A stretch of 59,881 nucleotides of DNA, taken from positions 1 through 59,881 of the forward strand of contig JAKIML020000095.1 of the NCBI GenBank assembly GCA_022702935.2. Direction: 5' to 3'. This DNA comes from Bacillota bacterium. Lineage in GTDB: Bacteria > Bacillota > Clostridia > DSM-8532. The stretch's first letter is position 1, and each line of letters begins with the position of its first letter. Below, piece by piece: positions 40,621 through 42,449 of the stretch. A program made the position numbers and the translations under genes. The notes under the pieces are model-generated. The model was not told the DNA's origin. It did not search any database and was given only the letters and a program-made list of their open reading frames with translations.

Positions 40621-41499
40621 ATGGTTAAGTGGGAAGTAAAGAATAATACAGTTATAGTCAGGGATTTAACACATTTTGATCCCGTTCAGACCTTTGAATG
40701 TGGTCAATGCTTCCGGTGGACGTGCATCCAGAAGAACCGTTGGTTCGGGGTGGTCAGGGGCCGGGTGCTGGAGCTTGAATGGAATGGGCGCGATTTATTG
40801 CTCTATAACACCACCCAAGAGGAGTTTTTGGATCTCTGGTACCCCTATTTGGATCTGGATCGGGATTATGGCGCTATAGAGGAGATATTGTCGCAAAATG
40901 ACCCGGTCATGGCCAGGGCCATTGCCTTTGGCCGGGGCATAAGGCTTCTTAAGCAGGACTTTACGGAAATGCTCATCACCTTTCTGATCTCCCAGAACAA
41001 CGGCATCCCCCGCATCCGGCAAATTATAGAAAGCCTCAGTCAGAACTTTGGTGAGCCCATTCATGCTGAAACGGGCGCCTATTCCTTTCCGTCGATGGAA
41101 CGCCTGGCAGGCTTATCCCTCGATGAACTGAAGGTGATTCGCGCAGGCTATCGTGACAAGTACATACACCGGGTGGCACAACAGCTCCATCACCAGGAGG
41201 TAAACCTTTCCATCATTCTTAAGGACACTGAATCAAAAGCCCGGGATGAGCTTTTAAAGCTCTACGGCGTGGGCGAGAAGGTGGCTGACTGCGTCCTTCT
41301 TTTCAGCGGTATCCGCTATGATATTTTCCCCATAGATCGCTGGGTGAAAAGGGTGATGGCAGAACTGTATCTGGGCTATGAGGCCAGCTACCAGGAGCTT
41401 GCCGCCTTTGCCAGGGAGCGCTTTGGCGAGCTGGCCGGGTTTGCCCAGGAATATCTCTTTTACTACGCCAGAGCCCAAAAAATCGGTATAGCGCGCTAG
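40621..41499 (+). CDS. ogg: 8-oxoguanine DNA glycosylase/AP lyase
   Basis: This base-excision repair enzyme removes 8-oxoguanine from DNA. The 292-residue protein has the OGG-type N-terminal domain (CGQCFRW segment) and the helix-hairpin-helix region LLKLYGVGEKVADCVLLF, with catalytic Lys220. Asp239 is in FPIDRWVKRVM; these correspond to human OGG1 Lys249 and Asp268. The ATG follows GGAAGG with a TA-rich promoter region upstream. The stop codon lies in CTAG and is shared, on the other strand, with the convergent gene. Confidence 0.92.
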   Translation: MVKWEVKNNTVIVRDLTHFDPVQTFECGQCFRWTCIQKNRWFGVVRGRVLELEWNGRDLLLYNTTQEEFLDLWYPYLDLDRDYGAIEEILSQNDPVMARAIAFGRGIRLLKQDFTEMLITFLISQNNGIPRIRQIIESLSQNFGEPIHAETGAYSFPSMERLAGLSLDELKVIRAGYRDKYIHRVAQQLHHQEVNLSIILKDTESKARDELLKLYGVGEKVADCVLLFSGIRYDIFPIDRWVKRVMAELYLGYEASYQELAAFARERFGELAGFAQEYLFYYARAQKIGIAR

Positions 41500-42449
41500 A
41501 GATGATAATCTCCGGCAGCCTCAGGCTGATAGAGAATCTTCTCGATATGGATCTCAGCCGTGCCCGAGGGGATTTTCCATGAGATGGTATCACCCTCACT
41601 GTAGCCGAGAATTGCCGTTCCCACGGGCGAGAATACCGACAGCTTCTTTTGGGACATATCGGCATCCCTGGGGTAGACTAGGGACACTTCCATGCTGTCC
41701 CCATTAAGCCGCAGACGGGCTCTTGAGTTCATGGACACCACAAACTGAGAAAGCTTGCGGGGATGGACCACCGTGGCTTTATCAATTTCCTGCTCCAGCT
41801 CCTGCAAGGCCCCATCCTTTTCCCTGCCATTGCGAAGCTCCTCGGTAATGAGCTTTCTTAGCCTGTCCTCATCCACCTCGGTGATGTAAATATCACTGGA
41901 AGGTATGGCCTGGCTCTGGATGGTTTGTACATAATTCTCCAGGGTAATGGAAAAGCTCAGCAGGGCAGGGGAATCCTGTTCCACTCTAAACCCTGCATTG
42001 ATAAAGGCCTTGATCGAGCGTTTGTTCTCATGGTGGATCTTTGCGATAAGCTTTTGGACCCGATGCTCAAAAAAGGCAACCTTCATGGTCTCCCGGATGG
42101 TATTGGTTCCAAGCTTTTGTCCCCATCTGGTGCGATCGCCGATGACAATGACCATTTCTGCCTGGGTGCCTTTTATGACAAGACGTACAAAGCCCACTGC
42201 AATGTTATGCTTGTCATAGACCATGTAAAAGCGTCCGTTCTGGCTGAACAGATGGGTCAGAATGGGGAGGTTTACCCGATTGATAACCTGCTCGATACTG
42301 GTGGAGACATCCTGAGAGTCGCTTAAGTACTTCCTCACCTCATGGTCACGCAGCCAATGGATGAGCAAAAGTGCGTTTTCCCTGGTGATTTCAGGGCATA
42401 AAAAAATGGAAGGCTCTTTCATTTTTACTACATCCTCTGTGGTAATCAT
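41496..42449 (-). CDS. GNAT acetyltransferase fused to an Rnk/GreA-C-like domain
   Basis: The N-terminal half (about residues 10-175) is a GNAT acetyltransferase: strands VGFVRLVI and AEMVIVIGD are followed by the acetyl-CoA loop RWGQKLGTN, and a C-terminal NAGFRVEQ strand follows. The C-terminal half (about 185-317) resembles Rnk, the nucleoside-diphosphate-kinase regulator related to GreA/GreB C-domains. Its markers are VVSMNSRARLRL, SLVYPRDADMSQKKLSVFSPVG, AILGYSEGDTISWKIPSG and the YQPEAAGDY ending. Rnk-type domains bind RNA polymerase; the fused acetyltransferase suggests an RNAP- or nucleotide-linked modification role, not shown here. AAAGG lies six bases before ATG 42449; another ATG is at 42464. 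Confidence 0.85.
   Translation of the reverse strand: MITTEDVVKMKEPSIFLCPEITRENALLLIHWLRDHEVRKYLSDSQDVSTSIEQVINRVNLPILTHLFSQNGRFYMVYDKHNIAVGFVRLVIKGTQAEMVIVIGDRTRWGQKLGTNTIRETMKVAFFEHRVQKLIAKIHHENKRSIKAFINAGFRVEQDSPALLSFSITLENYVQTIQSQAIPSSDIYITEVDEDRLRKLITEELRNGREKDGALQELEQEIDKATVVHPRKLSQFVVSMNSRARLRLNGDSMEVSLVYPRDADMSQKKLSVFSPVGTAILGYSEGDTISWKIPSGTAEIHIEKILYQPEAAGDYHL

Follow-up and report, generated by a model that had tools for sequence, protein, structure and literature searches.

A GNAT–Rnk fusion protein of Clostridia and Proteobacteria with a derived acetyl-CoA loop

A contig of a Bacillota bacterium of the class Clostridia (JAKIML020000095.1; 59,881 nucleotides, the whole of which is called the window here) carries one reading frame in which an acetyltransferase domain of the GNAT type is followed by a domain resembling Rnk, a protein that in E. 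coli binds RNA polymerase (RNAP). This locus raises the question of whether the two halves truly form one protein and, if so, what an acyltransferase joined to Rnk might do. We addressed the gene and its domains, the distribution and descent of the fusion, the state of its acetyl-CoA site, and the explanations that could account for the pairing.

Gene structure and domain content

On the minus strand the frame runs unbroken between 42464 and 41496. The initial annotation had placed the gene at 41496–42449 without specifying the strand; its frame holds, but its start, which gave a protein of 317 aa, was probably set too far upstream. Translation probably begins at the ATG at 42422 (308 aa), because relatives align from the sequence M[KTN]EPF, because the gene of the relative G020 has no in-frame start further upstream, and because AGAGG lies 11 nt upstream, at 42434–42438. 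The four landmarks named beforehand (RWGQKLGTN, MNSRARLRL, SVFSPVG and YQPEAAGDY) are all present in the translation. The gene is monocistronic and stands alone, its divergent neighbour encoding an M24 peptidase. A gene for an OGG-type DNA glycosylase (40621–41499) converges on it, and the tails of the two overlap by 4 bases (41496–41499). The gene and its domains are as follows.

41496–42422, minus strand: GNAT–Rnk fusion gene, probable start at 42422, 308 aa
42506–42534, minus strand: promoter-like site of the sigma-70 type, TTGACG-17-TATAAT, 11 of 12 matches, a consensus match only
41910–42422, minus strand: GNAT domain (Acetyltransf_3; Pfam match 41985–42371), also matched structurally by AAC(6')-Ib and SpeG
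41892–41909, minus strand: inter-domain linker, of low confidence in the model (residues 172–175, pLDDT <50)
41766–41891, minus strand: Rnk N-terminal helical hairpin (Rnk_N), by Pfam; model helices 182–197 and 204–215
41529–41741, minus strand: Rnk/GreA_GreB C-terminal FKBP-like domain, by Pfam and by the match to 3bmb (Z 20.5, 131 residues)

Profile searches bore out the assignment of a GNAT followed by a Rnk-like half, each Pfam domain scoring above its curated cut-off: Acetyltransf_3 (PF13302) at residues 27–155 (E 4.9e-13; 50.4 bits, cut-off 25.4), Rnk_N at residues 187–228 (34.8 bits, cut-off 23.7) and GreA_GreB at residues 237–307 (62 bits, cut-off 26.9). The NCBIfam Rnk model (PRK05753 / NF004396) matched with 115.8 bits (cut-off 109) over model positions 5–136 of 137, and phmmer retrieved two solved structures over residues 187–316, 2pn0 of Nitrosomonas (1.2e-22) and 3bmb, E. 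coli Rnk (1.8e-19). Because these profiles span the full Rnk, the C-terminal 131 residues constitute a whole Rnk and more than a Gre-C domain; the concern raised in the initial annotation, that this half might have no significant similarity to Rnk or GreA_GreB, is thereby removed, the similarity being highly significant.

The structure model of the fusion protein, built from a 45-row alignment (mean pLDDT 84, pTM 0.57), comprises two confident domains joined by a loose linker at model residues 172–175. When the model was compared with known structures by Foldseek and VIA-align, its predicted C-terminal half matched E. coli Rnk 3bmb with a Z of 20.5 (rmsd 2.1 over 131 residues, 36% identity), and the predicted N-terminal half (model residues 3–172) matched AAC(6')-Ib (Z 19), SpeG (Z 18) and a lasso-peptide acetyltransferase (Z 17.6). 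The predicted structure is in agreement with the GNAT and Rnk assignments.

Set against known proteins, the fusion resembles E. coli Rnk along its full length in having a short helical hairpin and an FKBP-like domain, but adds an N-terminal GNAT, and most of the clostridial fusion hosts examined lack the nucleoside diphosphate kinase Ndk. With GreA and GreB it shares a homologous C-terminal domain; unlike them, it lacks a long coiled coil and so could not extend as far as the active site of RNAP. Identity as a GreA/GreB cleavage factor was rejected, with greA at 54.6 bits against a cut-off of 139, greB at 22.6 against 171, and a hairpin of only ~34 residues in the model. The Acetyltransf_3 group, to which AAC(6')-Ib and SpeG belong, has the fold and the layout of the CoA site in common with the fusion, which differs in lacking the central loop glycine, in carrying Rnk, and in scoring below all specific aminoglycoside and polyamine cut-offs. 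Specifically, an aminoglycoside 6'-acetyltransferase was dismissed on the best AAC(6') model (23.6 bits, cut-off 450), and SpeG spermidine acetyltransferase on PRK15130 (20.1 bits, cut-off 218) together with phenylalanine in 52/52 fusions where the catalytic tyrosine is expected. That position, which we take to be the SpeG catalytic tyrosine, is also phenylalanine in nearly all unfused relatives.

Distribution and descent of the fusion

Altogether, 52 full-length fusions with 51–61% identity were collected from Clostridia metagenome-assembled genomes and from cultured Beta- and Gammaproteobacteria. Two come from members of the host's family, G011 and G020 (59–61% identity), and the class and phylum samples added others in G041, G045, G051 and G698. 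A scan of named genomes, in which a single-sequence query gave nothing and an alignment query succeeded, yielded ~43 more at 51–59% identity, nearly all in Pseudomonadota, including Acidovorax, Hydrogenophaga, Simplicispira, Comamonas, Bordetella, Pigmentiphaga, Pandoraea, Thiobacillus, Pseudomonas and Pseudoxanthomonas. The survey of Clostridia proposed in the initial annotation would have overlooked the larger share of the family, which is proteobacterial. Occurrence is patchy, at about 1–4% of species in the sampled groups: 5/391 genomes in the sample of the window's class, 8/200 in that of Hydrogenophaga's family and 3/369 in that of Hydrogenophaga's class, the centre genome being included in each.

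The existence of full-length fusions in dozens of relatives establishes that the fusion is genuine. A junction of two genes created by misassembly or a frameshift, the alternative raised at the outset, is refuted and has practically no probability left: nothing was found in its favour beyond the fact that the assembly containing the window is fragmented into 132 contigs, whereas independent assemblies carry the fusion at full length, those of cultured Acidovorax, Hydrogenophaga, Bordetella, Pandoraea and Pseudomonas among them.

No fusion was recorded among PLSDB plasmids or INPHARED phages. A gut phage contig (MT836484.1, 12701–13216) encodes a protein homologous to the GNAT half only, at 33% identity. 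On a megaplasmid of Mycetohabitans endofungorum, similarity to the fusion extends upstream of the annotated start of a GreA/GreB-family gene (L186, 1501–1977), which is possibly a decayed fusion.

Unfused relatives of both the GNAT half and the Rnk half were found in Bacillota. When a tree was built from the GNAT half, a branch with SH-aLRT support of 94 separated the fusions from the other sequences, and the proteobacterial fusions grouped in a single clade (100) nested among the clostridial ones. The Rnk-half tree likewise recovers the proteobacterial clade (99) and places the window protein beside it as sister (92); it also puts a few standalone clostridial rnk genes, with weak resolution, in the midst of the fusions. 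Both trees were quick ones, made without bootstrap. The simplest reading is that one fusion event in Clostridia was probably followed by one transfer to Proteobacteria and then by spread or loss. The domain pair stayed joined through this cross-phylum transfer, at 51–61% identity.

The modules are nevertheless separable, as two relatives with a deleted GNAT and an open Rnk frame indicate. G018 (L064, 5499–6101) has lost the first part of the GNAT and retains its C-terminal part in frame; G019 (L065, 5725–6171) has lost almost all of the GNAT and retains an N-terminal remnant upstream. The idea that the standalone clostridial rnk genes are leftovers of GNAT loss was set aside after their upstream regions were checked, since clear remnants occur only in these two and the others look truly standalone. 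Both halves of the intact fusion are under purifying selection, with median dN/dS values of 0.20 for the GNAT half and 0.18 for the Rnk half (540 pairs, crude Nei–Gojobori estimates), so the GNAT half is not decaying.

A search of the open-access literature returned no paper on a GNAT–Rnk architecture, although subscription papers or database names could still exist; we assume that automated names like 'bifunctional GNAT family N-acetyltransferase/nucleoside diphosphate kinase regulator' may be in use in databases. The architecture is therefore one for which we found no description; it spans two phyla, has a derived CoA loop and is broader than first thought.

The acetyl-CoA loop and the GNAT active site

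In GNATs, the pyrophosphate of CoA is bound by main-chain atoms of a loop with the motif Q/R-x-x-G-x-G/A (PMC5423648; PMC5390088). The initial annotation took RWGQKLGTN for this loop; the sequence is there, but it is not canonical, having a lysine at a position that is glycine in nearly all GNATs. Throughout the family the loop consensus is W-G-x-[K/R/N/Q]-L-G, and its central position is glycine in 0/52 fusions (Lys in 36, Arg in 11, Asn in 3 and Gln in 2) as against 32/32 unfused relatives. With the fourth position never glycine (52/52), the fusions depart from the canonical motif, so the fusion is filed as a GNAT by homology, as distinct from proven acetyltransferase activity. As a control, 13 other Acetyltransf_3 matches of the window's genome were inspected, of which 12 have the loop glycine and 1 has serine. 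The serine case is a RimI-like GNAT (L195; G000 C67:2621–2980) with the loop RGKSYG. Tryptophan at the first loop position is common in Acetyltransf_3-type GNATs and not unusual. The site elements within the gene are the following.

42108–42125, minus strand: acetyl-CoA pyrophosphate loop W-G-Q-K-L-G, in which the Lys codon 42114–42116 replaces the conserved central Gly
42156–42158, minus strand: codon of the beta-4 Glu, candidate general base, invariant in 52/52 fusions and 32/32 unfused relatives
41988–42026, minus strand: NKRSIKAFINAGF, the N-x-R-S...GF segment, which in GNATs makes contact with CoA on its pantetheine side; kept in the fusions; it has Phe in place of the catalytic Tyr of SpeG

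The beta-4 glutamate may act as the general base, by its correspondence to the position of the catalytic glutamate of Gcn5. Together with W-G-x-x-L-G and the N-x-R-S...GF segment, it is invariant or nearly so across the 52 fusions. An asparagine–pantothenate contact has been described for SsArd1 (PMC5390088). Catalysis by the GNAT half is likely but not assured, because the central loop glycine has been replaced in every fusion. Since this glycine is lost and the GNAT half is nonetheless under constraint, we regard the loop change as a conserved, fusion-specific trait, reflecting either a working enzyme that handles CoA in a changed way or a domain turned into a ligand sensor.

A distinct unfused GNAT subfamily (L141–L165, in Clostridium and relatives), whose nearest members are 42–49% identical to the fusion, recurs in Clostridium; it has an invariant L-N-E and, in common with the fusion, a T-H-L-F-N-x-x-G-x-F segment. 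At P0001 positions 43–44 the fusion has SD and the unfused GNATs NE. Herbinix (L162) has two copies of the unfused gene ~1.3 kb apart, and C. rectalis (L156) has a second, shorter copy 5 kb away.

Docking on RNA polymerase and competing explanations

E. coli Rnk has a short hairpin, binds RNAP and competes with GreA/B and DksA; this binding has been known since 2008, and a 2015 review still listed the function of Rnk as unknown (PMC4598747). The globular domains of Gre and DksA bind the rim helices of the beta-prime subunit (PMC7527559). Homology with the published E. coli protein suggests that the Rnk half of the fusion would likewise bind RNAP. The TMNS, LVYP and YQPEA-G stretches are nearly invariant and common to fusions and standalone Rnk, and the window protein retains the S-P-V-G loop. 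The proline of S-P-[IV]-G, invariant in the 19 standalone Rnk compared, is glycine or aspartate in most proteobacterial fusions, which score 96–106 bits against NF004396, just below the cut-off of 109. In proteobacterial fusions (L102, L104, L095 and others) the Rnk hairpin is also 6 residues shorter, the hairpin and loop changes lying at P0001 columns 205–210 and 275. Given the changed loop and shorter hairpin, RNAP binding may differ in the proteobacterial fusions; docking would thus be reasonably founded for the window protein, by analogy with E. coli Rnk, and is less certain for the proteobacterial branch.

We propose, with a rough probability of 0.4, that the fusion is an RNAP-docked acyltransferase. 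Its Rnk module would dock at the mouth of the secondary channel, on the beta-prime rim helices; the hairpin, as in E. coli Rnk, would be too short for the active site and would not elicit RNA cleavage. Docking would compete with GreA and tether the GNAT beside the polymerase, where CoA-ester supply would control its transfer of an acyl group to an amine; the acceptor could belong to RNAP, to another factor that binds the channel, or to a small amine or peptide ligand. As in the initial annotation, the fusion may accordingly bring acetylation to RNAP, by analogy with relatives for which Rnk–RNAP binding (E. coli) and GNAT chemistry are established. This proposal draws on a Rnk that is complete by profile and fold, a GNAT fold nearest to AAC(6')-Ib, SpeG and lasso-peptide acetyltransferase, CoA-site elements mostly invariant in the 52 fusions, and the retention of the pair through transfer between phyla with dN/dS of ~0.2 in both halves. 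A precedent is the phage protein Rac, a predicted GNAT that targets the linker of the RNAP alpha subunit and brings about cleavage of that subunit (PMC7552054); by its description it is a functional parallel only, as Rac is viral, stands alone and has no Rnk domain. Against the proposal stand the missing loop glycine, the phenylalanine at the SpeG-type tyrosine, the altered Rnk loop and hairpin of the proteobacterial members, and the lack of a conserved neighbour that would indicate a substrate. All-against-all clustering of the genes around the 52 fusion loci revealed no shared neighbour, the top clusters being antisense or shifted frames of the fusion gene itself, and none was conserved beside the unfused GNAT or unfused Rnk genes; genomic context therefore gives no substrate.

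The loop change bears on a possible though less probable alternative, in which the GNAT half serves as a pseudo-enzyme or sensor. It would bind a nucleotide (acetyl-CoA, CoA or another), catalyse inefficiently if at all, and gate the access of Rnk to RNAP, thereby coupling transcription to acetyl-CoA supply. The replacement of the glycine, mostly by a basic residue, in a domain under purifying selection would fit such a role, as would the presence of glycine throughout the unfused sister family and in 12 of the 13 other GNATs of the window's genome. The beta-4 glutamate and the N-x-R-S segment are, however, intact, and because CoA contacts are mainly main-chain (PMC5423648; PMC5390088), Lys or Arg in the loop may be tolerated. 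More doubtful is a Rnk half that has ceased to act on RNAP and instead helps a small-molecule acetyltransferase to oligomerise or to bind its substrate. An FKBP-like domain could serve as a general binding module, and the divergent S-P-[IV]-G loop and shortened hairpin of the proteobacterial fusions would be compatible with this; but the window protein has S-P-V-G and exceeds the Rnk cut-off, the stretches shared with standalone Rnk are nearly invariant, and two relatives kept the Rnk half after losing the GNAT.

An unlikely variant has Rnk bringing the GNAT to RNAP to acetylate an inhibitor bound in or near the secondary channel, such as a lasso peptide. A resistance protein of this kind would suit, though indirectly, the patchy, accessory distribution, the orphan gene without conserved neighbours and the fold near AAC(6')-Ib and lasso-peptide acetyltransferase, yet the phage and plasmid collections searched contain no fusion, the PADLOC defence library gave no match to the protein, and every aminoglycoside-acetyltransferase cut-off lies far above its scores. 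The historical name of Rnk, carried by the matched NCBIfam model, would make the fusion a regulator of nucleoside diphosphate kinase, which is highly improbable and is refuted as a general role in clostridial hosts. Ndk (PF00334) is absent from 6/7 clostridial fusion genomes, the window's own among them (G000, 99.98% complete), whereas 12/14 control genomes match, so the name cannot describe a role there. The clostridial hosts examined have GreA-type genes and no second Rnk; a standalone Rnk above cut-off also occurs in 4/6 of the proteobacterial hosts examined.

Returning to the docked acyltransferase, the fact that scattered Clostridia and Proteobacteria have retained the fusion suggests that it acts, as an enzyme or sensor, from a docked position on RNAP. 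Tentatively, the family may represent an undescribed class of secondary-channel factor with its own acyltransferase or acetyl-CoA sensor; such a factor would link acetyl-CoA supply to transcription, and would have a single clostridial origin with later spread to Proteobacteria. That Rnk is naturally fused to an enzyme, and has stayed so in more than one phylum, offers a hint to the function of Rnk itself, as the target of the GNAT should be near where Rnk sits. If the proposal is true, post-translational or metabolic control would be delivered via the secondary channel of RNAP.
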